Below are positions 4,525 to 23,637 of a stretch of 23,697 nucleotides of DNA, piece by piece (the first letter of the stretch is position 1; each line of letters begins with the position of its first letter). Made by a program: the position numbers and the translations under genes. Where the stretch lies: IMG/VR virus record IMGVR_UViG_3300044713_000091, positions 1-23,697 of that record; one strand, written 5' to 3'. The notes under the pieces were generated by a model, which did no database searches, was not told where the DNA came from, and saw nothing but the letters and a program-made list of their open reading frames with translations. This DNA is from a virus.

Positions 4525-5138
4525 GGCGCGTCTGACTGTAGCGCGATCTGGTCCTCGAGACTTTGCCCTACCGCCGTCGCATCGAGCTGCTCTTGCCCGA
4601 GCGCGTCTTCGGCTTGCGGGGGGCCACCGCCCGTCGCTGGCGTCGCTTGTGACGGTCTCGCCGCAGCGGGCAAAGGCTGCTTCCACTCGATAAACGAGAC
4701 CTCATAAACCTTACGCCCGCTCTCGACCTGGCCGAGATAGACCACCTCGGACGTCAGGACGGCCTGCACGTTCCATGGGGGGCCGCTGCACTCGTCGTGG
4801 AAGAAGCCGAGCGCCTTGAATCCGCCGTTGCCGCTCTGAAGGGCCGCGGGGGTGAGGATGGTTGACCATCCGGTCCACGCGTCAGAGTCCGCAGCGCCCA
4901 CAACGTTGATATGGAACTTCATCACGGCGAGCTGGACGCCGGCCGGAACAGCGGTCGCCCAATTCAGACCGTATGCCTTCCGGATGTCGTAGTCAGTCGC
5001 GACCCGTAGGGAACCGTCGACGAGCTCGCAGAAGAATGGGACTTGGGAGCCTCCAAGGTAGAAGATGTCTGCTTCCGGGCCGATGCCCCGCATTCCCGAT
5101 GCGTTCTTGGCTATGCGCGGAGGAGTCTCGTTGCTCAT
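4521..5138 (-). CDS. Tail protein following the tape measure (Mu gpN / LysM-adaptor position)
   Basis: A 205-aa protein starting at ATG 5138, in an ATGA overlap with the tape-measure stop, with GAGG 4 bases upstream. Residues 25-160 are beta-rich, with FYLGGSQVPFFCELVDGSLRV near the N-terminus and VYEVSFIEWKQPLP at 143-156. That is the kind of 'EF-x-E-W-x-x-P' strand that closes small baseplate adaptor proteins following the tape measure. Residues 160-205 are a Pro/Ala/Gln-rich tail. No LysM motif is visible. Its place between tape measure and hub matches the gene that links the tape measure to the hub in contractile phages. The role is positional. Confidence 0.75.
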   Translation of the reverse strand: MSNETPPRIAKNASGMRGIGPEADIFYLGGSQVPFFCELVDGSLRVATDYDIRKAYGLNWATAVPAGVQLAVMKFHINVVGAADSDAWTGWSTILTPAALQSGNGGFKALGFFHDECSGPPWNVQAVLTSEVVYLGQVESGRKVYEVSFIEWKQPLPAAARPSQATPATGGGPPQAEDALGQEQLDATAVGQSLEDQIALQSDAP

Positions 5139-7216
5139 GCCGCCTCGGTTTGCGTGGGGATACCCTGGCCCTTTAGGACCGTTGCGATTGCGTGCTCGAG
5201 ATCCGCGAGGAAGCTCGACGCTTGGATGGCCGCCGCGACTTCCTTCGCGTGTGTGCCGTGCGCGTTGACTTGGATCGTGAGGTTGATCGGGATGGTGATC
5301 GAAGATGCTCCGCCGCCGCGCGCGCCGCCGAAGCCGCCGCGAGGGACGATGGTCTCACCCGGCGCAACGCTCGCGAACGCTTCGCCGGGCGCTGGCTGCA
5401 CGACGGTCCCGCCGGCAGCATGCGCGGGCGCGACGGCAACAGGACGATCGCGCACCAGCGATAGGGGCTGTCGGGTCGTGCCCTGCGAGGCGAGTACAGG
5501 AGGGCCGAAAGTGGGCGGGGGCTCGTCGCGCTGGACCGCGAGTGGCTGTCTTACTGCCGGTGCGGACCCGAACGATTTGGCAAGCGCTCCGGGCAAGCTG
5601 CCGGCCGCAGCAAACGGATTGACGCTGGACGCGGCATCCTTCACGCTTTGAGGGACTAGGCTAAGTAGCTTGTCCGTAGGCTTTTCCGCCGTCTCGACGA
5701 TGCCCTTCACCTGCCCGTACATCGTGGCGATCGTCTCCATGTCGAGAGCGATTTCTTTGACCACGTCGCGGATTGCCTCGAACACCTTGACCGCAGAAAA
5801 GTCCTTCTTCGGAAAGGTCTTGAAGTACTGGAGTTCGAGCCTAAGGAAGGCGTTGTTTAGCTTCGTGGCCTCGAGGATCGCAAGCCTCAGGAATGTCTGA
5901 AGCTCTGGCCCGTCGCGTTTAGAGACGATGCCGAGCGAGGTCCCGAGACTCGAGACGATCTGCTTGAGTGCATACCCGCTCGTCGTCGTCGTACTGAAGA
6001 CGCTCTCGATCTTGCCGACCTCTTCCCAAAAAGATTGCAGGCCAGGGACCGCGCCGCGCGTGAGGGCGATCAGGTCGTCGTGCCACTTGTTCGTGATCGC
6101 GTCGGCGGTCGCCATCTTCGCGAGGTTGATCTGGCCGAAGTCCTTCTCGGCCGCCTCGCGGAGCGCCTTCGCCGCGGCGCCAATTGGCACCACGCCACGC
6201 CGAAGCATCGCGGCCGCCTTCTCGACGGAGATGTTCATGTCCTCCGCGAGAGCGTCGGTCACGTCCTCGGACTTGAGCCCGGTCCCTGCGAGCTCCCCGC
6301 CCGCGCGCGCCAGAGGCCCCATTCCGATGTTGATTCCGGTACGGCCGAACGCGGCACCGCGACGGATGATCTCGTCAATCTTTGCAGCAGCCGCAGAAGC
6401 CCCGGCGCCACTCGCGGTGCCCACACCCTCGACGACGTCGAGAATCCCCTGACCGGATACCCGCGTGCCGTCGAGGCCCGCGCGCGTCTGCGCGTAAAGC
6501 TTCGAAAGCTCTTCGGTAGTGAGGGGAATCTTCTGTCGGAGGCGGTCGATCTGGTCGCCCATCCGCGCCGAGTCCTCGGCGGACCCTGCGATCCATTGCC
6601 GAGAGAGCTGAAGCTGCTTGTTCGTGTCCGCGCCCGCGATCGTGAACTTGACGAGCGACGTCGCTGCCGAAGCCGCCGCATAGCCCACGCCGACAAGTGC
6701 CCCAACGAGCGCGAGAGAGCCAGCCACGAGGCCCGCGCTCGCCAGCTCGGCCGCCGTGAAGCCGGATCCGAGCTCGTTGATCTTCATACGCGTTTCGCGC
6801 GAGACGCCAAGCAGCTTGAGAAGACCCATGTTGAGGCCTTCGCTCTGATCGGCGTCGCGCTTGGCTGCCTCCGCTGCTTTGAGTTGCGCCAGCTCCGTCG
6901 CGCGCGCTTCCTTCTGGTGCTGGGCCGTGCGCTCGTTCAGCGCCTTGAGGCTCGAGCCTTGTTTCAGGATCTCGAGGTTCGAACTGGAGAACGCGGTCCG
7001 CTCCGCGTCGATCTGTGCCTTCAGCTTTTCCTTGGCCGTCTTGACTTCGTCGCTTGATCCGCGCAGCCCCCGGAGCGCAGCAGACCCCCTCTTGATGGCC
7101 TCCTCGGCTTGATTTGCGCGCTGGCGCATCTCTTCGAGCGCCTTCGCTGCATCCTCCGACACCTCCTTGACGTCGCCGCCCAAGGAAATGGACCAAGTCG
7201 CCTCCTCCGAAGCCAT
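5135..7216 (-). CDS. Tail tape measure protein
   Basis: A 693-aa protein, the longest in the window. Residues 15-125 are a charged Ala/Glu/Lys-rich coiled coil, about 155-188 form a Gly/Ala/Leu hydrophobic segment (AGLVAGSLALVGALVGVGYA), and 200-480 are mixed helices. Residues 510-610 are Pro/Ala-rich and the end (about 625-690) returns to structured sequence (ASSITIPINLTIQVNAHGTH). This layout is typical of tape measure proteins, which set tail length and are ejected with the DNA. At the usual rule of about 0.15 nm per residue the tail would be close to 100 nm. ATG at 7216 follows the stop of the -1 frameshift product by 9 bases. AGGA and GAGG precede it. The gene ends in an ATGA overlap. 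Confidence 0.9.
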   Translation of the reverse strand: MASEEATWSISLGGDVKEVSEDAAKALEEMRQRANQAEEAIKRGSAALRGLRGSSDEVKTAKEKLKAQIDAERTAFSSSNLEILKQGSSLKALNERTAQHQKEARATELAQLKAAEAAKRDADQSEGLNMGLLKLLGVSRETRMKINELGSGFTAAELASAGLVAGSLALVGALVGVGYAAASAATSLVKFTIAGADTNKQLQLSRQWIAGSAEDSARMGDQIDRLRQKIPLTTEELSKLYAQTRAGLDGTRVSGQGILDVVEGVGTASGAGASAAAAKIDEIIRRGAAFGRTGINIGMGPLARAGGELAGTGLKSEDVTDALAEDMNISVEKAAAMLRRGVVPIGAAAKALREAAEKDFGQINLAKMATADAITNKWHDDLIALTRGAVPGLQSFWEEVGKIESVFSTTTTSGYALKQIVSSLGTSLGIVSKRDGPELQTFLRLAILEATKLNNAFLRLELQYFKTFPKKDFSAVKVFEAIRDVVKEIALDMETIATMYGQVKGIVETAEKPTDKLLSLVPQSVKDAASSVNPFAAAGSLPGALAKSFGSAPAVRQPLAVQRDEPPPTFGPPVLASQGTTRQPLSLVRDRPVAVAPAHAAGGTVVQPAPGEAFASVAPGETIVPRGGFGGARGGGASSITIPINLTIQVNAHGTHAKEVAAAIQASSFLADLEHAIATVLKGQGIPTQTEAA

Positions 7217-7894: not shown

Positions 7895-8236
7895 CTAGAA
7901 GCGCGGCACAACCGTGATCTCGATGGCCTCCGCCTCGAGAGTGCCTGCCGGGCAGACCCCCATCGGCACTGCGTACGTTTTGCCGACCATCGGAAGGTCG
8001 GTTCCCGCCGTGTAGACGTGCGTGAGCGTGGCCGAGCTCTGAAAGTCGTTGCCCGAACTCGGCGGGATCTGATTGGTCACAACCGCGGGCCACGATGCCA
8101 CGGTGCCGTTTGGGTAGGTTACCGAAAAGTAGGCGGAGGTGACCGTCGACCAATCGAATCCGCTCGCCCCCTCGACGCACACGGCCTGGCACTGGTAAGG
8201 GGGGCCGGCTCCGATGATTGCGCGTCCGAATTGCAC
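7895..8236 (-). CDS. Small beta-rich virion protein, Ig-like (BppU-N-like pattern)
   Basis: A 113-aa protein from GTG 8236, 12 bases after the stop of the 652-aa repeat protein. It is rich in Thr, Val, Ser and Tyr, with alternating strands: DWSTVTSAYFSVTYPNGTV at 28-46, and TYAVPMGVCPAGTLEAEAIE near the end. The order of an N-terminal D-x-S-x-x-T strand, a P-x-G turn, Trp, then a 'G-x-x-Y-x-x-P' strand resembles the small Ig-like domain at the start of BppU-type baseplate proteins. This is only pattern similarity. The start context CGGTAAGCC(T)GTG nearly repeats that of the gene upstream. A structural or adhesin accessory role is inferred from the neighbours. Confidence 0.65.
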   Translation of the reverse strand: MQFGRAIIGAGPPYQCQAVCVEGASGFDWSTVTSAYFSVTYPNGTVASWPAVVTNQIPPSSGNDFQSSATLTHVYTAGTDLPMVGKTYAVPMGVCPAGTLEAEAIEITVVPRF

Positions 8237-8248
8237 AGGCTTACCGTA

Positions 8249-10207
8249 TCAGGGTGCGGGGGCGATGCCCACCGTTTGGCAAGTGACCGAGACTGAAGGG
8301 ACGGCCGCGCACGTTACGGAGATCGATGGCATCGTCGAGCAAATGGCGCCGGGTAAGTTGATACCCGTCGCAACGAGCTTGAAGAACTCGTCGTCTATGG
8401 ACGCCACGGTCGCTCGCCATTGATCGAGATCTTGCGGCCAAAGAATGGCCGACTGCGCGTCATCTAGCCCGAATGGGGATGGGGGACTCGCCATCCAGTC
8501 TTCGCGCGAGGCTGGGTACGAAGGAACCTCTACAGAGGACTGCGGCCATATGTAGCCAGATTCATCCGCCAGCGCCGTCTGGAGTCGCTCATCATTCCCA
8601 GTCGAAAAATAGGAAGTGGGCGACGCATCCGAGGGGCTCACGAGTTTGGGGGATGCCTCCTCGATTGCGATCTGGCCAAGAACGTCCTCGCCCGGTGAGA
8701 ACATGCTCGCCGGCTGAGGATCTTGCGCGAACGAGTACGGGCGCGACGCGTCGTCGAGCGCCGCTTGCGCCGGAAGCTCCTCTTGACTCGCGTATGGCGC
8801 TCCCTGCCATGCGTCGGCCAGCGTGAGCACCGCACCTTGCTCTTCGGCGGCAATCGACGCAACCGAGGTGTGAACCGTATCCTCTTGAGCTCGAACGGGC
8901 GGGATCTCTACGACCGGTTGCGCAGGAACGGGGGGGGACCACTCTTCCACCGCGAGGGTCGACGCCGCCGGCGGAGGAAAGTCGTCGCTCGGCTCGGGAA
9001 GGAACGGTAGATCGGGAGACGCGGGGACAGCGGGGGGAGGGCTCGCCTCTTCCAATGGCGACACGAAAGCGTTGAGCTGATCCTCGGGAGATGGATCGAT
9101 CGGAATGGGGTCGACCACCGAAGAAGAGATCGCGAGAGAAGACTCCTCGAGCCCACGGACTCCGCTGAAATGATCCTCGCACGGCTCCGGAAGGGTGCTC
9201 GCGTCGATCGTCTGCGGCGGCAGGAAGGTCGACCCCTCCCCTTCGAGCGCCGCGAAGAGCGTGCCGGATACATCGTCGGAATTGACCTGCCTAGCCGGGG
9301 CCGCGACATCGTCACTCGGCCGAATCGTCAGCGACGATTCTTCAAATGGGTGCGCAGGCAGCTCATCGGTGGCTGGCTCGGGAACGGAACCATAGTCGAC
9401 GGGCATCCAGATGAGCGGCCCCGTGGCTTCCTCTGCGGCGAGTGCCGTCCCCGCGATCGGCAGCTCGTCCACCGATCCGCGCGGCACATAGAGCCCGAGA
9501 TCTGAAGCGAACGAATAGGCGATCCGCGGCCCATCGTCCTCGGCGACGATTCCTCCGCCTCCACCCCCCGCAGCGAAGTAGGTGGTGGTGACGACGGCGT
9601 AGTAGCTGAACTGAATGACGCCCGAGGCGGTCACGCTCCCGGCCGTCGCCTGGATCATATATTCCTCGAGCTGGCGAAACTCGCTTCCGAGATACGCGCT
9701 CGTGAAGCCTGTACCTACTTGCGGGAAGCCGCTCGTGTCGGCGGTGGAGAAGACCGTGGCCGAGATCAGCTCGCCATTTGCGGTTGTCGTAACCGGATTG
9801 CCGGAAACGGTGCCGCTACCCGCGCTCTCGAAGTGATCCACTTGGTCGAGCGGGTTGCTCGTCGCAAGGATTCCGCTCCACTCGAGCGCGTCGCACTCGA
9901 AGTTGACCGGCGAGCCTGACGAATTGTTGGTGACCGTGATCGAGTACGACCCGGACGCGCAGCTGTAGCAGTAGTACTTTTCCGCGCCCGGGAAGGTCCC
10001 TGTCGCCGACGTCCCCACGGCGAAGTGCCAGATCTGCCCGCTTCCGGAGCTGTCCGTAACCGTGAAGTTTGGCGGCGTCCCAGTACCCGAGCCCTGAACG
10101 ATGATCTCGAGAAGATGCCCGGCGCCGATCGGGTTCGTGAACGTGACGATCGACGGCGAATACTGGAAGCCGATGCCCGGCGCGGCCTGGACGAGGAGGA
10201 TGGCCAC
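8249..10207 (-). CDS. 652-aa adhesin-like protein with about twelve acidic 30-36 aa repeats
   Basis: Starts at GTG 10207, 10 bases after the previous stop. Residues 1-213 are a beta-sandwich-like domain with the order I know from secreted and phage surface proteins: an early 'T-N-P-x-G-A-G-H-L-L-E-I-x-V' strand, FTVTDSSGSG, EKYYCYSCASGSYSITVT, ALEWSGI and TTTANGELISATV. A six-Gly linker (214-219) leads to residues 223-607, made of about twelve degenerate repeats, each opening with an acidic pair and Ser/Ala, then Pro-rich, then a second acidic pair. The end (618-652) holds two short copies, PSISVTC and PSVSVTC. Its place between tube and chaperone is unusual. It may be a decoration, neck fibre or receptor-binding protein. 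No catalytic motif is seen. Confidence 0.85.
   Translation of the reverse strand: MAILLVQAAPGIGFQYSPSIVTFTNPIGAGHLLEIIVQGSGTGTPPNFTVTDSSGSGQIWHFAVGTSATGTFPGAEKYYCYSCASGSYSITVTNNSSGSPVNFECDALEWSGILATSNPLDQVDHFESAGSGTVSGNPVTTTANGELISATVFSTADTSGFPQVGTGFTSAYLGSEFRQLEEYMIQATAGSVTASGVIQFSYYAVVTTTYFAAGGGGGGIVAEDDGPRIAYSFASDLGLYVPRGSVDELPIAGTALAAEEATGPLIWMPVDYGSVPEPATDELPAHPFEESSLTIRPSDDVAAPARQVNSDDVSGTLFAALEGEGSTFLPPQTIDASTLPEPCEDHFSGVRGLEESSLAISSSVVDPIPIDPSPEDQLNAFVSPLEEASPPPAVPASPDLPFLPEPSDDFPPPAASTLAVEEWSPPVPAQPVVEIPPVRAQEDTVHTSVASIAAEEQGAVLTLADAWQGAPYASQEELPAQAALDDASRPYSFAQDPQPASMFSPGEDVLGQIAIEEASPKLVSPSDASPTSYFSTGNDERLQTALADESGYIWPQSSVEVPSYPASREDWMASPPSPFGLDDAQSAILWPQDLDQWRATVASIDDEFFKLVATGINLPGAICSTMPSISVTCAAVPSVSVTCQTVGIAPAP
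8387..9541 (-). repeat. Tandem degenerate 30-36 aa coding repeats, about twelve units
   Basis: First acidic pair of each unit at residues 224, 259, 289, 322, 354, 386, 421, 455, 485, 516, 548 and 582 (steps of 30-35). Second acidic cluster at about 247, 281, 311, 344, 376, 408, 442, 476, 507, 539, 569 and 605 (steps of 30-36). A rough unit is [DE][DE]-x-S-x(8-10)-P-x(5-8)-P-x-x-[ED]-[DE]-x(8-10)-[LI]-[AL]. The identity between units is low, so the repeat shows in spacing more than in letters and is not obvious at DNA level. Confidence 0.7.
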
Positions 10208-10217
10208 GGCTTACCGC

Positions 10218-10817
10218 CTAGGCAGCCGTGAAAGACCACACGTTCCCGCCGGTCGCCATGGTGCCGGTGCCCTGCGTGCAACCCGTGAGAGAGGTGGGCG
10301 TCGTCCCGGTGTAGAGCACCATCTGCATACCGGCAGTGGTCACGACGAACGCCGCGCCGGACGAAGGGAAGGCGGCCGTCGATGCGACGGTGATGGTCGC
10401 TTGCGGTAGCGACAGTCCGTTGGACGCGGCTGTCAGCGTGGTGACGTTGCCGCTTGCGCCGATGTAGTTCGCGACGCTTGGCGGAACCGCGGCATTTACC
10501 CTGGCCTGATAATAGCTGTACCATGCATTGACGCAGGCGGCAGCGCCGGCGTCGCTGAAGAGCACCTGCGGGATCGGAAACGAAACGACTTGCTCGACGT
10601 ACGTGCCGGCCTGAAGAGCTGCGAGCTCCGTGGGGGTAATTCCAGCGACGGCCCACGTGGATCCGCTGGGCTGACCAGACTGGACTGGCACCTGCGACGT
10701 GAAGCCGGGGAGTGGCGTTTGCGCAAGCGGCGGCACCGCGAGCCAAAGGGCTATTCGGTAGTTGATGAGCAGCCCGGTCGGATCCGGCGTCTCATTGAGC
10801 AGGACGTCGGTGCGCAT
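10218..10817 (-). CDS. Virion protein with C-terminal 'FPSSG...YTG' beta module
   Basis: A 199-aa protein from ATG 10817, 9 bases after the previous stop. Residues 1-110 are unrecognised, with Pro-rich and Trp/Tyr-containing segments (AACVNAWYSYYQARVNAAVP). Residues 139-192 carry a module I know from many phage tail-fibre and virion proteins: QATITVASTAAFPSSGAAF, then VLYTGTTPTSLTGCTQGTGT, ending TGGNV. This module usually lies in repeats in fibres, whereas here there is one copy. The gene sits with other beta-rich proteins between the tube and the chaperone. A role as a minor tail decoration or fibre attachment protein is an inference. Confidence 0.75.
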   Translation of the reverse strand: MRTDVLLNETPDPTGLLINYRIALWLAVPPLAQTPLPGFTSQVPVQSGQPSGSTWAVAGITPTELAALQAGTYVEQVVSFPIPQVLFSDAGAAACVNAWYSYYQARVNAAVPPSVANYIGASGNVTTLTAASNGLSLPQATITVASTAAFPSSGAAFVVTTAGMQMVLYTGTTPTSLTGCTQGTGTMATGGNVWSFTAA

Positions 10818-10826
10818 CGACAGATC

Positions 10827-11312
10827 TTACTCGGCGATGCCGATGTCCTGACCGTAAGTCGTGCTCGCCGACGCGCAGGAGACGAACATGTCCAGGCTCT
10901 TCGTCGCGGAGGGCTGAAGCTGGGGCGCGTCGTCGAGGTCGCGCGATGCCATCCACGTATCAGACCCAGAGACCCCGCACGAGACCTCGCGGTAAAATAC
11001 GAGAGTGCCGGTGCCCGAGGTGACGGCGCCGGTCGCATAGCCCGCCGAGCTCTTCGCGGCGGCCGTGGCGGTCGGAGTAGGTGCCGGAGTGATCGCGGTC
11101 CCGCCCGAGCTCGCCGTAGTAGGATACCCCTTGAGGCGACCGGTCAGCGCGGAGAGCGTCGTCGCGCCGCCTGCCTTGCCCATGATGTGGATATAGCGAA
11201 CGATGCACTGAGCCGCCGTGCCTGGCGAGACGAAGAGAGAATCGTTCTCCGTGTTAGGCGTCGCGTTCGTGGTTTGGATCGCTCCAGGTACGACAGAGTA
11301 ATACGCCGGCAT
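10827..11312 (-). CDS. Small beta-rich structural protein of unknown function
   Basis: A 161-aa protein from ATG 11312, one base after the stop of the zinc-type ORF, with AGGAG 7 bases upstream. The N-terminal half has CIVRYIHIMGKAGGATTLSA followed by GRLKGYPTTASSGGTAIT, a Ser/Thr/Gly/Ala-rich stretch resembling phage decoration or fibre proteins. The C-terminal half contains GTGTLVFYREVSCGVSGSD and SLDMFVSCAS. Composition (Thr, Ser, Ala, Gly; few charges) and neighbours suggest an exposed virion part. I do not recognise the family. Confidence 0.7.
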   Translation of the reverse strand: MPAYYSVVPGAIQTTNATPNTENDSLFVSPGTAAQCIVRYIHIMGKAGGATTLSALTGRLKGYPTTASSGGTAITPAPTPTATAAAKSSAGYATGAVTSGTGTLVFYREVSCGVSGSDTWMASRDLDDAPQLQPSATKSLDMFVSCASASTTYGQDIGIAE

Positions 11313-11527: not shown

Positions 11528-11896
11528 TCAGTTTCCTCTCGCGCTGCATGCGCGCGCATAGTCGCCCGCCAGCTTCGTGAGCAGCGAGTTAGGGTCATCG
11601 AGCTTCTCCGCGATGGCTTCGACCGAAAGGCCTGACGTCGCCTCCGCGATCCGTTCCTGCCATTCGTCGGGTCCGCATGCGACGAGGCCCGCCGGCACGC
11701 CATGCTTCTCGACGCACTTGTTGCAGAGGTTCGTGACCTTTCGCGCCGTCGTCGTCACGTAGCCATCCGGAGCGCCGCAGTTGAAGCAGAACGCGGGGAC
11801 CCACTCCTTGACGACGCCGTCCGACGGGTCGACGCCGCGGACCACACCGCGCGCCACGCGGGCTCGACTGTCGGGGAGGTGATGTAGGGTGCCCAT
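11528..11896 (-). CDS. 122-aa CxxC...CxxC putative zinc-ribbon protein
   Basis: Starts at ATG 11896, immediately after the tube-gene TAA, with no Shine-Dalgarno sequence, so coupled translation is likely. Residues 37-61 hold CFNCGAPDGYV and LCNKCVEKHG, that is C37-x2-C40 and C58-x2-C61, a typical zinc ribbon or treble-clef spacing. Residues 76-122 are helical (DEWQERIAEATSGLSVEAIA). A protein in this slot just after the tube would normally be suspected as a tail chaperone, but the chaperone with a frameshift lies further downstream. A tail-assembly or regulatory role is possible. I cannot name the family. Confidence 0.75.
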   Translation of the reverse strand: MGTLHHLPDSRARVARGVVRGVDPSDGVVKEWVPAFCFNCGAPDGYVTTTARKVTNLCNKCVEKHGVPAGLVACGPDEWQERIAEATSGLSVEAIAEKLDDPNSLLTKLAGDYARACSARGN

Positions 11897-12409
11897 TTAT
11901 TGCTGGCTCGAGAACAGGGTGAAGATTCCGTTAGACGTCTTGACTGACATCCCGAGGAAGCCGAATGACATGGCGTCCTTGAGCTCCGTGGCATCGACAG
12001 GGTAGTCTCCGCTCTCCTCGTCGTACCAGCACGTATCGAACGTGTAGACGATGGGGGGGACGCCGAGCGCTTCCGACACCGGCTCGGTCAGCGTGTAGGA
12101 AATCGTGTAGCCGACCGCGTCGCCGTAGCTCGTGCCGTTCGGCTCGAGTGCTGCAAGGCCTTCGCGAACGAGCTGCACCGTCTGCGCAGAAAACGTGATC
12201 TTGAGGACGGGGTTCTCCATCTCGCCGGCGGTCACGCCTACCGGGCGAAGATCGCGACGAGAGCCCTTGAACGTCTTACGGCCCCGCTTCGCGCCTTGGG
12301 CGATAGAAACCATCCCGTCGAACGGACCCATCGTGTCGATCCGAACCGTAGTCGATCGTCCGCTGAGGATTACCCCAGCGAGGCGCGCTGCGTCGAGTCC
12401 GGCTGCCAT
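11897..12409 (-). CDS. Tail tube protein
   Basis: A 170-aa protein directly after the sheath gene (TAATG, one-base overlap). It has the size and beta-strand pattern of contractile-tail tube proteins: an early strand with RIDTMGPFDGMVSIA, a loop with GAKRGRKTFKGSRRD, a central MENPVLKITFSAQTVQLVREGL, and a closing ELKDAMSFGFLGMSVKTSNG. Sheath followed by tube is the near-universal order in contractile phages. The tube is the inner conduit around which the sheath contracts. It is most likely the Mu gpM counterpart by position. Confidence 0.8.
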   Translation of the reverse strand: MAAGLDAARLAGVILSGRSTTVRIDTMGPFDGMVSIAQGAKRGRKTFKGSRRDLRPVGVTAGEMENPVLKITFSAQTVQLVREGLAALEPNGTSYGDAVGYTISYTLTEPVSEALGVPPIVYTFDTCWYDEESGDYPVDATELKDAMSFGFLGMSVKTSNGIFTLFSSQQ

Positions 12410-14178
12410 TATTGCGCCACCTGGGTGAAGGCCTGCTGAACCACAAAAAACTTGGCGTAAAGCAACGATTGCACGTACACGAAACCAGTCAGAGTTGCAG
12501 GCGCATTTCCAAGATTGATGTCCGAGCGGCTCAGAACAAATTGCACGCCGCTAACCGCGCCCGCAGACACCTGGTCAACTTCCGGCTGAACGTGCGCCTC
12601 GATGCGAAGCGCCTCGCTCTCGAGGATAAATCCCGTCTTCGGATTTCGATCGAAGCCGCTCGAAAGGAGGTCGGTCAGCGCGGAGAAAGCCGCCGCGCAA
12701 CAGGCGTTCGCGACCCTTGCGTTTTGCGCGAAGACGAAGGCGCTCCCAGTGCCCGAGTGGATGTACTCGTTCGTGATGTAGACGCCCGGGCGGTCGCTGA
12801 AGGTGCGGAGCGTTCCGAGTCCGATCGAGACCGAGTCGAGGCCACTCTGCGTCCCCTCGTTGTGCCACTTCGGCTGGCCGTTCGTCCCCGTGATGTTGAT
12901 CGATGCGGGGAGCGGCCCCGTCACGACAGCCGCCGCGTCGACGCCGATGCCTACCGACTCGAGGCGAGCCGCCGCCGTGATGGCGACCGGAACCGGCTTG
13001 ATTACTCCGGTGATCGCCGAGGTGTAATCGCAGTAGTCCGCGTTCGGGCACACGTTGATCGACGACGAGCCCGCAAGGACGGCTACGACGGCGGTTTGAA
13101 ACGCGGCGTCCGTCTGCCCGGCCGGGATGTTCCGGTGGATGGTGTTCGTTATGAAGAGCGGGAAGACCCCCGAGCCGGCCTGCGCCGTGCTCCATGCGTC
13201 CTCGACGCCGAAGAGCGTGGACGTCGTGTACCCTTCGACGAACACTAGATCCCAATCGAACTCGGTGGACGCAAGCGAGGCGAGCGCGGAAACCAAGTCG
13301 CTCGAGTTCGGCTGCGCGGGGACCGGGTGCACGCGGAGGAAGTCTCCCGTCACAAGGGTTTCCGTCGACGTGCCGAGGGTGATCGGTACACCCGTAGAGG
13401 CGCCCGTCACTGGCATGACCGGCGTGAAGGTCAGTGCGCTCGTGATCGTTACCGGCGGAGAATACGTGTTGCCGCCATCCATCGAGGCTTGAAGCGTGAT
13501 CGGTCCGGTGCCGAGCGTACCGCCCGTGTTTACCTTGACAAGGACGTCCGCATACTCGTCGGCGATGGCCGCCACACTTCCCATTGACGGGACTGCGGTG
13601 CCTGCGATCGAAACGAACAGGCCCGTCCATACAATCGTGGCCGAGCTCGCCGTGTACGTTCCGGAGCCCGTCACGCCGACAAGGGCCAGCGTATTCGCGT
13701 CCACATACGTCGCTTGCCAAGTGCCGTCGATGGCCGTGTCGCCCGTGGCGCCGGTGATGGTGACCGTGATTGCAGTCGCGCCACCAGGAAGCGTTGCGGG
13801 GACGCCATGCGCGGTCACCGTGATGTGCGCGGGCGGCCCGTTCGACGGGACGGCCACGACAGCCTGCCCAGCGGCGCCGCCGAGAATGAGTGGGTTCGTG
13901 AAGTATCCCGGCGTCGATGCGGTGCAGCGCACGGCAAGGATCGGCTTGTTCGCCGTCGCCATCTCGTAGGTGCCGCGCTCGAGCAGCGGCCCCTCGACGC
14001 ATGCGACCTGAAATGCACTCCCCGGCCCGCTCTGACTGTAGGGGGTCGGCACGTTGTACGGGAGCGCCGACGCGGCGCTCGAACAAGGCGCGATGATCGC
14101 GAGGATGCCGTTCGCGGCCTGCGCGGCCTGCACCGCCGCGGCGCTCTGCTTCGTGATGCTTACGCTCGGCGCTGCCAC
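12409..14178 (-). CDS. Contractile tail sheath protein with two inserted beta modules
   Basis: A 589-aa protein from GTG 14178, 4 bases after the terminator-like stop. The N-terminus (SVSITKQSAAAVQAAQ...ILAIIAPCSS) and residues 305-589 (DWDLVFVEGYTTST; DRPGVYITNEYIHSG; FALTDLL-type helix; terminal SLLYAKFFVVQQAF strand) match sheath proteins, including the C-terminal arm strand that links neighbouring subunits. Between them sit two modules: residues 118-184 with DTAIDGTWQATYVDANTLAL and GSGTYT, like the FCCH-type module found in many phage tail proteins, and residues 210-288 (ADVLVKVNTGGTLGTGPITL), similar to an insert in the gp36-like protein. The inserts should be displayed on the sheath surface. 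Confidence 0.85.
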   Translation of the reverse strand: MAAPSVSITKQSAAAVQAAQAANGILAIIAPCSSAASALPYNVPTPYSQSGPGSAFQVACVEGPLLERGTYEMATANKPILAVRCTASTPGYFTNPLILGGAAGQAVVAVPSNGPPAHITVTAHGVPATLPGGATAITVTITGATGDTAIDGTWQATYVDANTLALVGVTGSGTYTASSATIVWTGLFVSIAGTAVPSMGSVAAIADEYADVLVKVNTGGTLGTGPITLQASMDGGNTYSPPVTITSALTFTPVMPVTGASTGVPITLGTSTETLVTGDFLRVHPVPAQPNSSDLVSALASLASTEFDWDLVFVEGYTTSTLFGVEDAWSTAQAGSGVFPLFITNTIHRNIPAGQTDAAFQTAVVAVLAGSSSINVCPNADYCDYTSAITGVIKPVPVAITAAARLESVGIGVDAAAVVTGPLPASINITGTNGQPKWHNEGTQSGLDSVSIGLGTLRTFSDRPGVYITNEYIHSGTGSAFVFAQNARVANACCAAAFSALTDLLSSGFDRNPKTGFILESEALRIEAHVQPEVDQVSAGAVSGVQFVLSRSDINLGNAPATLTGFVYVQSLLYAKFFVVQQAFTQVAQ

Positions 14179-15201: not shown

Positions 15202-16013
15202 AGAAATGGTGGGTTCCCGAAGCCCCCGCCGCCGCCTCGGTTGTCCTCTCGTCGGCCGCGCGCGCGCTGGATGTTCATCCAGTGATACGGGGAGGCCTGG
15301 GAATGTGCGATCGGCGCTGGCGCGGTCACTCCCGATCCGCCCGTGTCCGTGTTCAGCGGAAGGTCAAAGAGTCCGGTTTCGCTGTTCGCCGCATCAGCGA
15401 CCTCCCTCGCGGCCGTAGCCTCCCGTTCGAACATAAGTTTGATCGCATCATCGTTCGACGGGTGAACCCCGCGGCGCTCGAATACACGCGGCGTCGTCAT
15501 GTCGACGATCCACCGAATCATGACGTCGGGCACAGGCGTCTGTGCGGTGTACACGTTCGAAGGGTCGTAGCTCGCCGGAGACAGAGGGAAGAGGATGGAA
15601 ACCCCCGTCCCGGCGAGTGCTACGAGCGGACCAGTCGTCACGGGTCCGATGATCGGGACCTGCCCGTTGACGAGCGGCGCACTGTTGTCCTGCCATGAGA
15701 AGACCGCAACGCCTGCGACGCCGCCGGTAGTGATCATGATCTGGAGTTCGATGTCCCCGCGCGCCGGGACGCCGACGAAGGAAATCGGCGGGGGTGTGAT
15801 TCCGGTACCCGAGGGGGGTCCCATCGACTGCCCGAGCGTGTCGACGAGGTAGCGCTTCCGGAGCTGCCCATAGATTCGAGACTGCGTCCCGAGGAGCGCG
15901 CGCGCCGTGAAACCCGGCTGCTTATTCTCGACGATCTGGACGTCAGAAGGGCTCATCGACGAGCGGAGCGTGAAGCCCTGCGTCGAGACCGCTTGGACGA
16001 ACGCCGGAATCAT
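15198..16013 (-). CDS. gp36/DUF1320-like head-tail adaptor with an internal beta insert
   Basis: A 271-aa protein from ATG 16013, 9 bases after the capsid-gene stop. Residues 36-57 (TARALLGTQSRIYGQLRKRY) and 165-215 (MIRWIVDMTTPRVFERRGVHP ... REVADAANSETGLFDLPL) match the two helical halves of gp36-like (DUF1320) proteins: a helix ending in 'L-R-x-R-Y', then a helix pair ending '-G-x-F/L-D-L-P'. Typical members are about 140 aa. Here residues about 66-163 are an inserted beta-rich domain (PARGDIELQIMITTGGVAGV...) resembling the second insert in the sheath. The C-terminus is a Gly/Arg/Asn-rich tail. The protein should sit in the head-to-tail joint. Confidence 0.7.
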   Translation of the reverse strand: MIPAFVQAVSTQGFTLRSSMSPSDVQIVENKQPGFTARALLGTQSRIYGQLRKRYLVDTLGQSMGPPSGTGITPPPISFVGVPARGDIELQIMITTGGVAGVAVFSWQDNSAPLVNGQVPIIGPVTTGPLVALAGTGVSILFPLSPASYDPSNVYTAQTPVPDVMIRWIVDMTTPRVFERRGVHPSNDDAIKLMFEREATAAREVADAANSETGLFDLPLNTDTGGSGVTAPAPIAHSQASPYHWMNIQRARGRREDNRGGGGGFGNPPFL

Positions 16014-16022
16014 CCGGACAGC

Positions 16023-17102
16023 TTAGGACGCGAGGACCTGGAACAGAAGATAGGGGTGACCATATTGGAAGCCGTAGCGTCCAATCAGGTTCCACTCCCA
16101 CATTTGCGATCGGTTGCCGCGAGCCGATGCTACGTCGGGGTACCCCTGGAGTTCGAAGGGCTCACGCTCGCTCATGATGAGTGCGCCGAGTTCGTCGGAA
16201 ATCGTATCCTCGACGTAGATGTAGTACGCGTTTGGCGTCGAGTTCGCCGTGTTGATCGCGTTCACCTCGGGTGCGGAGATGACGTCGAGGCCGTACGACT
16301 CGAGCACGTTGGAGCTCATCGAGATGAGTTCGGCGCCTGCGTTACCTCCGCCAAAGACGCCATCCGAACTCATGCCGAGGAGCTGTCGCGCGCGGTAGTC
16401 GAGGGTCGTGGGGACGAGCACGCCGCGAGGAACTAGGTAGCGAGGCGTCCCCGCGGCGTTGAACGTCAGGCTCCCGATGTAGCCCAGCGCTCGGCCAAGG
16501 TTTTCTCCCGCCGTCGCCAGGTCGTTGATCGAGCCCGCCGAGCTTCCGGTAACCGAGATGTCGCACGAGCCGCCGACGGTCGCCACGTCGAGGATGTTGG
16601 AGAACGTGGCGCCCGAGGGCTTGCCAGGGTCGATCGGGTGAGCCGTGTTGAAAAAGCTCAGGCCGTCATAGGTGGTCGCCGTGCCGCCGGCGCCGATGAG
16701 GCTGAACATGTTCTTGCGGGGGAAGAGGACCCCTTCCGCGCCACGGTCGCGCGCCCACTTGTCGGCGTAGTCCATCGCGCCGACCTTCGGGTTCTTCTCA
16801 AGCTGGTTGTCCTTGATCTCGTTGCTCGTGAGGCGAAGGCCGCTCCCGAAATTCGAGATGATGATCTCCGTCTGCATCGCGGTCATGTCGTCGAACCGCA
16901 TCTTGCCGCCGTTGCCTTGCGGGTAGATGCCGACGGTGTCCAAGAGCCACGTGAGGATCTCGATCTTCCCCTGTCCGGGCCGGGCCTTCATGACCTTGCC
17001 CCAAGCGCCCGCGTGCTTGACCGCCCGCTGCCAGTTACCCGTAATCAGGCTCTCCAGCCTCGTATTGATATCGAGGACGTAGAGCGGGTTTACCTCAGCC
17101 AT
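16023..17102 (-). CDS. Major capsid protein (Mu gpT-like)
   Basis: A 359-aa protein from ATG 17102, with AAAGG 9 bases upstream. Residues about 150-163 (TTYDGLSFFNTAHP) are a hallmark of gpT-like capsid proteins ('Y-D-G-x-x-F-F-x-T-x-H-P'). Also typical are the N-terminal LESLITGNWQRAVK and the C-terminal WEWNLIGRYGFQYGHPYLLF ('R-x-x-x-G-Y/F-G-x-P'). It follows the gpI-like protease/scaffold and a small putative decoration protein, the usual Mu-like head order. Residues 110-125 (RDRGAEGVLFPRKNMFSLI) include a basic loop. This is one of the most confident calls in the window. Confidence 0.9.
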   Translation of the reverse strand: MAEVNPLYVLDINTRLESLITGNWQRAVKHAGAWGKVMKARPGQGKIEILTWLLDTVGIYPQGNGGKMRFDDMTAMQTEIIISNFGSGLRLTSNEIKDNQLEKNPKVGAMDYADKWARDRGAEGVLFPRKNMFSLIGAGGTATTYDGLSFFNTAHPIDPGKPSGATFSNILDVATVGGSCDISVTGSSAGSINDLATAGENLGRALGYIGSLTFNAAGTPRYLVPRGVLVPTTLDYRARQLLGMSSDGVFGGGNAGAELISMSSNVLESYGLDVISAPEVNAINTANSTPNAYYIYVEDTISDELGALIMSEREPFELQGYPDVASARGNRSQMWEWNLIGRYGFQYGHPYLLFQVLAS

Positions 17103-19090: not shown

Positions 19091-20121
19091 GGTTTCATTC
19101 CTCGAGCTTCCCTCACGGCCTGCACAAGAGAGTATGCCTCCGGATCGTGCGCCTGCAATTCCTTTCCATGAAACACGTAGGCCGTATGCAGTTCGGCGAA
19201 CCACTCCTTGTGATCTGCCATGGCGTAAGTGGAGGGCACCCACGCGCCATGACGGAGGCTCGCCTCGGTATCGCTCACGGCGACTCTCTTACGATAAGCC
19301 TTTTTGATGTCCCTCCAATGCTTGACCGGCAACGGGTCCTTTTCGTCAAGGTGAATGTGGTGCGAGAGCTCGTGGACCATCGTTCGCTGTCGCATCTCTT
19401 CCGGGGTTCGAGCCAGGGTCGAGACGCTGAACACGTCCTCGCCGCCAAGTTGTTGGCGACCGCCGATCTTTGCCCAGTGCGACTCGGTGCGATCAAATGT
19501 CCGAGCCGCCGCCTCCGTGTTCTTGATGGAGATCTTGCCAGCTCGCGCTTTTGGATGCGCATAGACACCGTTTGGGGTCCGTCGCCCAGCTGCCGATACG
19601 GGCCCATGATTATCGATGCGTTCAAGTGGGCTCCTCGCGAGATGGGGCCCGAAGCCACCGAGGACTATCGCGCGCTCGGCAGCCTCGACAGTCCCTCTTT
19701 CCACTACCGAATGATCGATGCCGAGATTTTTCAGCGTAGGGTGCTCAACCTTGCGGGAGAACTCCGCCATCTTCCTGTGCTTTTCGGCCTGCTCCGAATG
19801 ATGCAGCGCGGCGTATCCATGCTTTTCGATCGCCTTCGCATGCCTTTCTCGATCCTTCTTCGTTCGGGCATGCTTGAGAAGTTCTGAGCGACGAGCGACC
19901 TCTTTGGAGTGAAACTCTGCTGCCTTGCGATGAGCTTCGGCGGCCTTCTCGTCATGTTCGGACTTTCCTGTTTTCTTCGCCTTGCCGCTTGCAGCGGCGG
20001 CGTCCCCGGATCCCGAACTTATCCAGCGACCTCTAGAGTCGCGCGCCTGATCTGGATCGAACGCTGCAAAGAAGTGCAGGAAGTCCGCGAACTCGTCGAA
20101 ATCATGCGCTGTCGCGCTCAC
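19087..20121 (-). CDS. Putative HExxH metalloprotease-like virion effector in the MuF slot
   Basis: A 344-aa protein from GTG 20121 (20-base overlap with the portal gene, GGAGAG 6 bases upstream). An upstream ATG at 20181 only adds an Arg-rich shadow. Residues 21-35 (FDPDQARDSRGRWISSG) are the 'D-P-x-Q-x-R-D-x-x-G-R-W' linker common in phage head-associated proteins. Residues 52-125 are a His/Lys/Glu/Ala-rich helical stretch. Residues 246-258 (RTMVHELSHHIHL) give a zinc HELSH site (H250, E251, H254), and HKEWFAELHTAY at 304-315 supplies a likely third ligand, E310, as in gluzincins. No MuF core is visible. An ejected or head-packaged protease is plausible. Activity, substrate and virion location are inferred. 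Confidence 0.75.
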   Translation of the reverse strand: MSATAHDFDEFADFLHFFAAFDPDQARDSRGRWISSGSGDAAAASGKAKKTGKSEHDEKAAEAHRKAAEFHSKEVARRSELLKHARTKKDRERHAKAIEKHGYAALHHSEQAEKHRKMAEFSRKVEHPTLKNLGIDHSVVERGTVEAAERAIVLGGFGPHLARSPLERIDNHGPVSAAGRRTPNGVYAHPKARAGKISIKNTEAAARTFDRTESHWAKIGGRQQLGGEDVFSVSTLARTPEEMRQRTMVHELSHHIHLDEKDPLPVKHWRDIKKAYRKRVAVSDTEASLRHGAWVPSTYAMADHKEWFAELHTAYVFHGKELQAHDPEAYSLVQAVREARGMKP

Positions 20122-21523
20122 GTGCGGCTCTCCAGTGTGCGAATACTTCCGCAACGGCCATCGCCGAAGCTTGCGCCACATCGCCCTTCACTAGGGACAG
20201 AGCCGGCTTTTTTCCGCTCACGTCCGGCGACACCGGCTCCGCCGCCGGCGGCGCGTGGGGCGCAACCCTTCGAACCGGGATCCGATACCGTGTGACGATT
20301 TCCTGGAGGTCGACCTCGAAACCGTACGGCGCCGCCTGCTGATTGAACGCCGCGACCGCTTCACATGCCGCCGTGATGCTGTTCGCCACCGCGGTCAAGT
20401 CCGTCGGCGGCGTAGTGTCAATCTCGACGGTCCCGCGCTCGCCGCTGCCCAGCATGTTGTTCACGATGGGGCGCAAGGCCTGCTCGTTCAGGTCTCCGCA
20501 CGCGCCATCCGCATCATCCTGGATAAGGTCGAGCGCGATCGTTTTGAAGATGTCCGCGTTCGCGAAGCCGACGCCGCCCGTCACCGTGACGAGCTGACCG
20601 GCGAGTGCGATCATCATGTCGTAATTGCAGCTCTCGATCGTTTCCTTGAATGCCTGATACCCGATGCCATTCGATTCGAGGAGCTTGACCGTCCAGCCCT
20701 TCGGCAGCGAGAACACGGAGTTGAGTCCCCAGGCCATCAGCTTTTGCGCCCAGCCCTCTCTCTCGTCCTCGGTGGCACCTAGCGGTCCCTCTGCCACGCG
20801 CGCGGCATTCGCGAGGGTCGCCATGTACGCCTCGCGGTAGTGGAACGAGTGATCCTTCGAGACGTACGACCGAGAGAGCGAACTCCACAGTCCGTTCTGC
20901 CACGGATTTTGGATCCCTCCCGGAAAACCAAGCACCCAGCGGCCGTCACCGGGCACGACGTGGATGAGGCCCCCGACGCTCCGGTAGTACCAACGATTGT
21001 CCCCCCAGACGTATCGCAAGAACTGCGGATCGATCCGAACGAACACCGGCTCGGGACGATCGGGTAGCGGCACGAGTTCTCCGAACCGGACGCCGTTCAA
21101 AATCCCGTCACCGATCCAGAGGGCGAGTTCCTTTGGAGGAAAGATCCGGTCGAAGAGCCCCGTACGACCCTCACGATTCTCGAGTGCCTCGACCGCGCTC
21201 GCGGTGCCGCGGAAAAGCTTTGGAAGCCGCGTAAGCCCGGAGGCGCGAGTCGAAAGCAACCCCCCGGCAACTCCGTCACGCCGGAGCGCTCGAGACAACT
21301 GCGCCACCAGCGTAAGATCTCCTGCGTCCGCCATGTGGAGCGCGTCTTCGATGTCCGCCTGATAGAATCGCTGGATCGAATGCGTCTGTAGCGGGCGCTC
21401 GAGCCGGATACGCTCGGGCTCGTCTGCATAGGCGGATCGGTATGGTGCGGGGAGGTACGGCGGAATGAAGACCGACGCGACCTTACCAGCCACCTTTCCG
21501 CGCAAATCGCTGAACAGGCCCAC
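20102..21523 (-). CDS. Portal protein (Mu gp29 / DUF935-like)
   Basis: A 473-aa protein from GTG 21523, 36 bases after the large terminase. The central RIDPQFLRYVWGDNRWYYRS, FPGGIQNPWQNGLWSSLSRSY and KDHSFHYREAYMATLANA regions, and especially the helix GIGYQAFKETIESCNYDMMI followed by ALAGQLVTVTGG and the later DLNEQALRPIVNNML, follow the DUF935 portal order (helix, 'I-x-G-Q-T-L-T' turn, Gly loop, helix with 'N-x-x-L-x-x-x-L'). The portal is the dodecameric DNA gate of the head. Residues 420-445 are a Pro/Ala linker, then a C-terminal helix. Its end overlaps the next gene by 20 bases. Confidence 0.8.
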   Translation of the reverse strand: MGLFSDLRGKVAGKVASVFIPPYLPAPYRSAYADEPERIRLERPLQTHSIQRFYQADIEDALHMADAGDLTLVAQLSRALRRDGVAGGLLSTRASGLTRLPKLFRGTASAVEALENREGRTGLFDRIFPPKELALWIGDGILNGVRFGELVPLPDRPEPVFVRIDPQFLRYVWGDNRWYYRSVGGLIHVVPGDGRWVLGFPGGIQNPWQNGLWSSLSRSYVSKDHSFHYREAYMATLANAARVAEGPLGATEDEREGWAQKLMAWGLNSVFSLPKGWTVKLLESNGIGYQAFKETIESCNYDMMIALAGQLVTVTGGVGFANADIFKTIALDLIQDDADGACGDLNEQALRPIVNNMLGSGERGTVEIDTTPPTDLTAVANSITAACEAVAAFNQQAAPYGFEVDLQEIVTRYRIPVRRVAPHAPPAAEPVSPDVSGKKPALSLVKGDVAQASAMAVAEVFAHWRAARERDSA

Positions 21524-21559: not shown

Positions 21560-23293
21560 CTATCGAGGCCCGCGCCGGGTAAGCCCGTATGCCTCGCTCA
21601 AGTACCGGCCCTCCGGAACAGAACGGCCTTGAGTGTACGGCATCAGTGGCCCCGGCGACGCAGACGGCACCGTCGGAAGCTCGATTACATTCCGGCCCAT
21701 CATCCAGCACGACAGCGCTAGCGAGTCCATCTCATCGGGGGAAGATCCCTCTAGGATTTCGCGCAGGTCGTCCTTGCGGATCAAGACCTGCTTGCCCGCC
21801 TCATTGTCGATCCAGCGGAGCGCGATGAGCTGCGCGCGCAGTCGTTGGTTCTCTGGCCAGCACCCCCCGTCGCGCACCCACTCGAGGAGGGTTCCGAAGA
21901 GAAGATCGCGATTCAGTTTGTACGTCATCGCGAGCGTTGGGTTCGTCGGCTTCGGAGATCCGCGGAACTCGGTGACGAGCATCATCCCGTAATTGTTCCG
22001 AGCGTGCGCAAGGAAGACGTCATACACGCGCGCCCCTTCGGCGCCGTCACGGTCGATCACCACCCGGGGGCGCTGGTCGTCGACATCCTTGCTCGTTCTG
22101 TAGCGGCCGAGGAGGATCAGGACTTGGGACAGGATTCGGTCCGGAGTGCAAAGCTCGCCCGGTCCAAGCTCTTCGGACGTCCAGAAGCAAAGCACACGGT
22201 TCCCGCGCCGCACCGTGATCGCAGTCCGGTCGCCCGTCCTCGCCTCGCCGGCGACGTCCACGCCGATCGCCAAGCGCCCCTCGACGGGCAAGTGGCGCGT
22301 CTTGAGCCACTCTTGCGGGCGCTCGAGAATCACGTCGAGCGGGATAAGCTGGCCCTCCTCCGCTTTGGGCCAGATGCCCAGGACGTCGGTCATCCACGCC
22401 TGCGAGCGCTCCCCCCACGCGCGCCGGCAGCTCTCCGCCCACGCGCGCGAAGCAAGGCCCGGGATGTCCGCTCCGTCCTTGATATTAGGATTCTCCAGCG
22501 AAGAGCAGCTAAGGCACGCGCTCGTGCCGTCCGGGCGCACGAAGTCCGCGGCGTTCGTGTGGAAGCTCCGCCACGCCCACCCCGAGGTCTTCACCGGGTT
22601 CGTGAGCGCCACAAGCTTTGCGTGCGCCGCCGCGAGATTGCCCTCGATGGTCGAAATGTGCTCGTCGTCCACGTAGCAAGCCTCATCGATGACAGACATG
22701 AGGTACTCGCCCGACAGCCCGCGAAGTCCGCCGCCGCCGGGGCGCGCCACCATCCCGAAGATCGCGCGGTCGTCGGTCGCGCGCAGCCCCGTCTCGCAGC
22801 CCACGCCGATCGACCCGACCATCATTGCCGAGTGCGCGCAGGGGAGCGGCACCGATTCGCCTTCGGCCAGCTTCGCCTTGCACGCGACGCAGCGCCCATG
22901 CTCGCGCCACGCCTTCCGGATCTCGGGCCAAATGATCTCCTCGATGCTTTCGAGCTTCGGCCCGTACAGGATCACCTTCGCGCCCGGGTGGCACGCCCAG
23001 AACCAAAGACACGCGCAGGCCACCGCGAAATCTTTCCCAACCTTCCTTCCCCCCGCGATCGAAGTCTTCCTAGACACCGAAATCGTCTCGACGATCTCAC
23101 ACTGAAATCTCCACAGGCGCACGCCGAGCACGTTCGCGCAGAACTCGAGCGGGCGCGTCGCGTAGTACTTCGACGGCCACGCGGTCGACGCCGCCGCCTC
23201 GTCCTCGAGATCCATCCTGCGCAAAAGCTCCGATGCCGGGCTTGCCTTGCGCGAGGTGCGAGCGACGCCGGGGGCCGCGCGCGAGGTCCTCAC
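21560..23293 (-). CDS. Terminase large subunit
   Basis: A 577-aa packaging motor from GTG 23293, in a GTGA overlap with the upstream stop and with GGAGG 4 bases before it. (A GTG at 23338 is also open and also has an SD-like GGGAGG; I prefer the overlap seen at four other junctions.) ATPase: Walker A variant AGGRKVGKD (80-88), Walker B LMSVIDEA (198-205), coupling motif LTNP (230-233). Nuclease (RNase H-like): GVDVAG with D346, VVIDRDG with D414 and PDEMDSLAL with D520/D523. Between the ATPase motifs, CVACKAKL and PCAHS give C135, C138, C152 and H154, a possible zinc-binding insertion. It cuts and pumps DNA into the head through the portal. Confidence 0.9.
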   Translation of the reverse strand: MRTSRAAPGVARTSRKASPASELLRRMDLEDEAAASTAWPSKYYATRPLEFCANVLGVRLWRFQCEIVETISVSRKTSIAGGRKVGKDFAVACACLWFWACHPGAKVILYGPKLESIEEIIWPEIRKAWREHGRCVACKAKLAEGESVPLPCAHSAMMVGSIGVGCETGLRATDDRAIFGMVARPGGGGLRGLSGEYLMSVIDEACYVDDEHISTIEGNLAAAHAKLVALTNPVKTSGWAWRSFHTNAADFVRPDGTSACLSCSSLENPNIKDGADIPGLASRAWAESCRRAWGERSQAWMTDVLGIWPKAEEGQLIPLDVILERPQEWLKTRHLPVEGRLAIGVDVAGEARTGDRTAITVRRGNRVLCFWTSEELGPGELCTPDRILSQVLILLGRYRTSKDVDDQRPRVVIDRDGAEGARVYDVFLAHARNNYGMMLVTEFRGSPKPTNPTLAMTYKLNRDLLFGTLLEWVRDGGCWPENQRLRAQLIALRWIDNEAGKQVLIRKDDLREILEGSSPDEMDSLALSCWMMGRNVIELPTVPSASPGPLMPYTQGRSVPEGRYLSEAYGLTRRGPR

Positions 23294-23637
23294 CCGGCCT
23301 CCACGATTCTCTTGAGCTCCGCGCGCACCGCCATCCACGCCTCCCGGTGCGGGCGAAGCACAACGATCAACGCATCCAGCACGCGCCCGAAGTGCGGCGA
23401 TTCTATTACCTGCCGCGCTGTCAGCTCCGTCTCGCCACGGACGCGCGAGAGCTGGCGAAGAGCAGCGGCCAAGGAGGTAGAGATGACCGCCCGGTTCCGC
23501 AGCGTCATCGCCGGGTCAAGCTCCGCGTCCCGGCGGTCCTGCTTCAACTGCCGGATCACTTCCTCGACCTCCTCGAGGGTGGTGCCGAGTCGAGCAGGGG
23601 GAGCGGGCTTCTGAGCTTTGGCTGCTGCGCGTGCCAT
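23290..23637 (-). CDS. Terminase small subunit-like protein
   Basis: A 115-aa protein from ATG 23637 (MARAAAKAQKPAPPARLGTT). A GTG at 23667 in frame would add 10 residues, and neither start has a good ribosome binding site. Residues about 15-40 form a charged helix (TLEEVEEVIRQLKQDRRDAE), 45-75 another (AVISTSLAAALRQLSRVRGE) and 80-115 a last (DALIVVLRPHREAWMAVRAE). All-helical, small and directly upstream of the large terminase is the usual small terminase situation. The DNA-recognition HTH is not obvious. Called mainly from position. Confidence 0.65.
   Translation of the reverse strand: MARAAAKAQKPAPPARLGTTLEEVEEVIRQLKQDRRDAELDPAMTLRNRAVISTSLAAALRQLSRVRGETELTARQVIESPHFGRVLDALIVVLRPHREAWMAVRAELKRIVEAG

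Follow-up and report, generated by a model that had tools for sequence, protein, structure and literature searches.

Late genes on the minus strand of the DNA analysed here belong to a contractile-tailed phage of the Mu-like kind, and the question that they raise is what a long acidic repeat protein does among them. The window, that is, the whole stretch of 23,697 nt, belongs to IMGVR_UViG_3300044713_000091, the record of an uncultivated phage. Genes for the terminase (21560-23338), the portal (20102-21523; Portal_Mu match, 1e-30), a Mu-like gpT major head protein (16023-17102), the sheath (12409-14178) and the tape measure (5135-7216) are found on this minus strand. Use of the sheath as a query for close relatives of this phage retrieved none. 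The gene for the repeat protein, here called D (8249..10207, minus strand; 652 aa, GTG start), is located between the sheath and the tape-measure genes, and its assignment is based on the list of open reading frames, a hidden Markov model (HMM) of its N-terminus and codon GC. The third-codon-position GC of D (0.75) is near the values for the tape-measure, sheath and portal genes, and the codon-position GC is flatter in the repeat region (0.70/0.52/0.70) than in the rest of the gene.

Organisation of D and spacing of its acidic pairs

Four parts can be distinguished in D, all of them encoded on the minus strand. Residues 1-213 (9569..10207) correspond to a predicted beta-sandwich, jelly-roll-like domain; residues 214-219 (9551..9568) form a hexaglycine linker; residues 223-607 carry twelve acidic-pair units, as defined by spacing statistics; and residues 608-652 (8252..8386) make up a C-terminal tail with three cysteines (PSISVTCAAVPSVSVTCQTV), for which no match was found. 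An earlier note, made from the sequence alone, had placed the repeats at 8387-9541, and coordinates, length and strand proved to be exact.

Within the repeat region the distance from one acidic pair to the next is by turns about 22 and about 11 residues. The complete series of steps is 24, 12, 22, 8, 10, 12, 33, 10, 21, 11, 22, 13, 21, 13, 21, 9, 22, 9, 23, 9, 21, 13 and 23, so that most steps measure 21-24 or 8-13 residues and the few exceptions lie near the start of the repeats. With a diverged pair (EGEG near 322-325) included, the steps resolve into twelve units of 30-36 aa with a period of 32.7 +/- 2.1 aa, a long arm of about 22 and a short arm of about 11 residues, which bears out the earlier estimate of about twelve units of that size. 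Acidic pairs are more frequent than the composition predicts (24 observed, 9.25 expected), and 18 long/short alternations were counted, against a maximum of five across 50,000 shuffles. When the steps themselves were kept and their order alone was shuffled, 18 alternations were reached in 47 of 100,000 trials.

Two features of this spacing had been overlooked in the earlier note. An additional single acid lies at +11 to +14 in all twelve long arms, a result reached in none of 20,000 shuffles; because this position was spotted after viewing the data, it was scanned in the shuffle test. Further, the power spectrum of the repeats has its peak at a period of 10.75 aa, a third of the unit (reached in 12 of 2,000 shuffles), and this period is explained by the further acid in each long arm. 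As a consequence, D has an acidic group every 10-11 residues or so, paired at two of every three nodes. The composition of residues 216-612 is rich in proline (13%), alanine (13%), serine (12%) and acidic residues (D+E, 17%) and poor in basic ones (K+R, 3%), and the net charge of the repeat region is -56. Acids aside, the units display a weak internal similarity (anchored BLOSUM score, reached by 10 of 1,000 shuffles), in agreement with the low identity between units noted before. Neither RTX nonapeptides (GGxGxD, 0 occurrences) nor collagen-like repeats (Gly-X-Y, 0 runs of four) occur in D.

A gene cassette shared with other uncultivated phages

Used directly as a query, D found no viral contig, no phage record and no PDB chain of note. 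Relatives were sought in viral contigs by a DNA pattern for units reading DEDFWQNPVAPV...DPEEIPAGSLYGQP, which gave 22 loci; two of these (L020 and L023) are chance matches and the remainder bear such repeats. These tandem-repeat open frames of uncultivated phages, of the type DEDFWxNPVAPV...DPEEIPAGSL, resemble D in their alternating acidic pairs (steps of about 24 and 12 there, 22 and 11 here), in an acidic, proline-rich composition, in two partner genes, A and B, and, in some of them, in a beta-sandwich N-terminus. Contrary to this, the words DEDFW and NPV are missing from the units of D. A profile of the 38-position DEDFW unit scored D below the best shuffled controls, and in an anchored position-specific matrix of 173 family units the non-acid columns of the D units remained at chance level against shuffles (z 0.8). 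The relationship of D to the DEDFW-type family is thus not established by the amino acid sequence by itself, and it is the conserved cassette partners that link them.

In many contigs the order of the cassette is fixed: A (CxxC...CxxC), B (160 aa), often C (a beta-sandwich) and then D. The record analysed here holds the full cassette, with A (11528..11896, minus strand; 122 aa, zinc-ribbon-like, LPDSR...FCxNCG...LCNKC), B (10827..11312, minus strand; 161 aa, beta-rich by appearance) and C, which is an own gene in several relatives and is fused here as the N-terminus of D. Identity to relatives amounts to 25-37% for A, with four invariant cysteines, and to 28-32% for B. HMMs built without this record matched A at 11531-11896 (E 1.8e-17), B (E 3.3e-19) and, with the C-domain model, the N-terminus of D (E 1.5e-10), and the three profiles picked these frames alone among the 217 six-frame open reading frames of the record. 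A protein of 199 aa encoded between B and D (10218..10817, minus strand) has weak matches to phrog_22827, of unknown function, and to a baseplate wedge family, and the protein of 113 aa immediately after D (7895..8236, minus strand) has no family match in the libraries searched.

Further cassette contigs were gathered in viral contigs by queries with A and B, independently of D. A D-like frame was present downstream on the same strand, at a distance of 30 to 4,878 bases, in 31 of 51 B-bearing contigs. These 31 comprise ten contigs reached by the D pattern, 20 reached by a query with A or B only, and the present record. Among the 20 B contigs without D, 16 have under 3.6 kb of sequence downstream, and two that were counted as lacking D (L025 and L059) hold a D-like frame under the threshold. 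Fifteen D proteins, including the one described here, go unmatched by the DEDFW profile and were identified by spacing only; of 8,397 six-frame open reading frames, one passed the alternation threshold as a clear false positive. That false positive is an antisense open frame (15699-16433, plus strand) overlapping the major head gene region, and it is due to chance as far as is known. D is a member of a large unannotated group seen in dozens of other uncultivated phages.

It could be argued that D is low-complexity sequence that arose by chance, in an antisense or a drifting frame of high GC content, given that the stretch is GC-rich with many overlapping open frames and that codon-position GC is flatter in the repeats. 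This origin is extremely improbable and is refuted by the spacing statistics, by the homologous N-terminus in the same frame and by 30 other contigs in which D takes the same position.

The cassette co-occurs with unrelated portals or connectors: Mu-like in this phage, and phrog_146, phrog_12, phrog_1216/332, phrog_156 and phrog_10963 elsewhere. Its position also varies, after the capsid gene in L015 and probably in L022, before the portal in L004, and in the gap between sheath and tape measure in this record. In L011, whose portal has no PHROG match, it probably sits, to judge by the sequence alone, between the portal and capsid genes, and in L053 a baseplate gene lies upstream. A GH16 glycosyl hydrolase domain is encoded in the cassette of L018, with a score (E 5.6e-7) that passes the Pfam cut-off. 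Large neighbours with signal-peptide-like starts, unusual for phage structural genes, accompany the cassette in L004 (1813-4869), L018 (773-3394) and L012 (7457-12178), and the one in L004 has a weak rhamnogalacturonan-lyase-like match.

Conservation of spacing among D proteins

The comparison of 25 D proteins, each with four or more complete units, showed that the mean period stays between 32.7 and 37.5 residues in proteins of very different sequence. The repeats of different D proteins do not align, their sequence having altered past recognition. From member to member, one arm gains length as the other loses it (19+14.5 in L063, 23+10 in L053, 26+11 in L022/L030), and the sum of the two is steadier. 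The arms are very regular in some of the diverged members, for example EEPWTAQVQARPWQALPFG / DDETGTATWLKSFALEQ in a composite of the L062 units. In the ten other D members checked, a lone acid midway along the long arm was not common.

That spacing is kept and sequence is not would be expected of an array in which the acidic pairs bind one by one to recurring sites, basic or bridged by a metal, on a capsid or tail lattice or on a surface polymer, with the spacing as the ruler. The further acid at +11 to +14 in every unit of D, and the acidic node every 10.75 aa or so that it creates, also agree with such an array. A rigid ruler, however, would not tolerate arms that range from 19+14.5 to 26+11, although their sum is steadier, and this explanation appears quite unlikely. 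A less rigid form of the idea, in which charge spacing is the inherited trait and a flexible chain docks along a periodic surface of the particle or of the host, is put forward tentatively, as an unlikely possibility.

The domains that are joined to the repeats differ among relatives. A beta-sandwich precedes them in L019, L027, L002 and L055, a Kelch-like sequence follows them in L006 and a Cys-rich module follows them in L004, L012 and L018. This variety of folded domains suggests that the repeats behave as a linker. The Cys-rich C-terminal module (CRICNSGKPLVVRGDYAIWCQDCCAFVSK) is common to five D proteins (L004, L012, L016, L018 and L021). In many relatives (among them L010, L015/L044, L065, L003 and L055) a hydrophobic, Ala-rich segment of 20-25 aa (W-W-x-G-x-Q-K/R-C-F...VALAA...) lies directly before the repeats, at the place where D of this record has the hexaglycine.

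Predicted structure and putative role

AlphaFold, run on an alignment of 16 sequences, predicted a beta-sandwich for residues 1-120 of D (pLDDT about 58-86) and a weaker beta region up to about residue 215. Foldseek searches of BFVD matched the fold of this N-terminal domain to uncharacterised phage proteins, to minor tail proteins of mycobacteriophages and to a phage carbohydrate-binding protein of the CenC-like type; where a minor tail protein was named, the probability was 0.99-1.0, yet identity was 11-16% and E-values were 0.01-0.04. Against solved structures, the VIA-align score rose to Z 8.4 for beta-sandwich domains in subtilisin-like proteases, a likeness that may merely reflect a common arrangement, and a fold search of the PDB with the whole D model returned nothing with E below 0.001. 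Together with the alignment to separate C genes and the C-domain HMM match, these results support the order of a beta-sandwich followed by a poly-Gly linker proposed in the earlier note. The likeness to phage minor tail and tail-fibre-like proteins, such as the minor tail protein of Mycobacterium phage Tonenili, is confined to this domain, and acidic-pair repeats are not known in such tail proteins.

The repeats themselves were predicted without secondary structure (pLDDT about 28-47), and four units taken from a relative with far more regular repeats gave no structure either (31 sequences, pLDDT 36); alignments of 16-31 sequences are shallow, so that these low values do not prove disorder. 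The arms of D display no strand or helix periodicity (strand-like hydrophobic alternation, z 0.3-0.7). These observations speak, weakly given the depth of the alignments, against the stack of beta hairpins that had been suggested along with a rope and a binding array, and of the three the rope is the best description. Phage fibre shafts are often trimeric, and a single-chain model would miss a homotrimeric fibre fold. The repeats might accordingly fold only as an oligomer, for instance a trimeric beta shaft in which the acidic pairs are turns, and build a rigid fibre. The two-arm spacing, whose mean period stays within 32.7-37.5 aa despite complete change of sequence, and the very regular arms of the L062 composite would fit such a shaft. 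In contrast, the arms of D have no strand-like alternation and AlphaFold predicts no strands for the repeats in single chains, and an ordered fibre is considered unlikely.

The reading that we favour, with moderate confidence, is that D is a virion-associated accessory protein in which an acidic, extended tether carries a binding domain, and that the cassette helps the phage to reach or hold the host surface. The N-terminal beta-sandwich would be the binding or docking domain and the poly-Gly a hinge between it and the repeats. The long, strongly acidic and largely unstructured repeat region would be the tether, the chain being held stretched by repulsion among regularly placed acids and by the Pro-rich arms, and selection would keep the spacing of the acids and not the sequence. 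The cassette would act as an accessory structural module across unrelated phages, most likely aiding the particle in reaching or holding a polysaccharide-covered host surface. The extended state is suggested by charge, proline content and the lack of predicted structure, and presence in the virion and adhesion by gene context and the N-terminal fold. This tether is favoured because the alternating acids far exceed chance, cassette synteny is conserved and the period is kept across differing sequences; the structural-gene context, the tail-protein/CenC-like fold predicted for the N-terminus, the GH16 domain in L018 and the predicted lack of structure in the repeats point in the same direction. 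T4 Hoc and collagen-like fibres are modular, repetitive accessory phage proteins encoded among structural genes, and D is like them in this respect, a likeness that serves as a lead; D differs in having no collagen (Gly-X-Y) or RTX motifs and no Pfam relation to them.

Some observations stand against the tether. The cassette proteins were not found in any deposited phage searched, and the hydrophobic segment before the repeats of some relatives fits a membrane-associated protein equally well. A membrane-associated role is possible for the relatives with this segment, which D of this record lacks. A destination other than the particle, namely the host envelope, in which the protein would be anchored or to which it would be exported during infection, would be consistent with that segment and with the signal-peptide-like starts that neighbouring cassette proteins have in L004, L012 and L018. 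For D, which has no hydrophobic segment and whose gene lies between those for sheath and tape measure, such a destination is very unlikely.

Queries with A, B and D against 50,697 phage records found nothing, and D had no match in plasmids. In Pfam, PHROG and NCBIfam no convincing match came up for the A, B, C and D proteins tested, the PHROG matches of the D proteins of L022 and L019 spanning short stretches only, and a literature search for such acidic-pair repeats found none. The cassette is thus viral dark matter, common to phages with unrelated capsids and portals and missing from the deposited phage genomes searched. Since D keeps its charge spacing and not its sequence, ordinary homology searches miss it and a simple spacing statistic detects it. 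If the tether reading is true, it would describe the way in which many uncultivated phages get to, or keep hold of, their hosts. The suggestion in the earlier note that similar repeats occur in phage and bacterial proteins proved right for phages, in the cassette contigs, and was not supported for bacteria: when 84,980 bacterial and archaeal genomes were scanned for partner B, it was confirmed on two contigs, each of them part of a metagenome-assembled genome. Contig L025 (JAHEYD010000002.1), binned as Candidatus Nitrosotalea, carries A, B and a D-like frame together with a phrog_12 portal and a phrog_10 major head protein, and stems either from a phage placed in the wrong bin or from a virus that infects an ammonia-oxidising archaeon.
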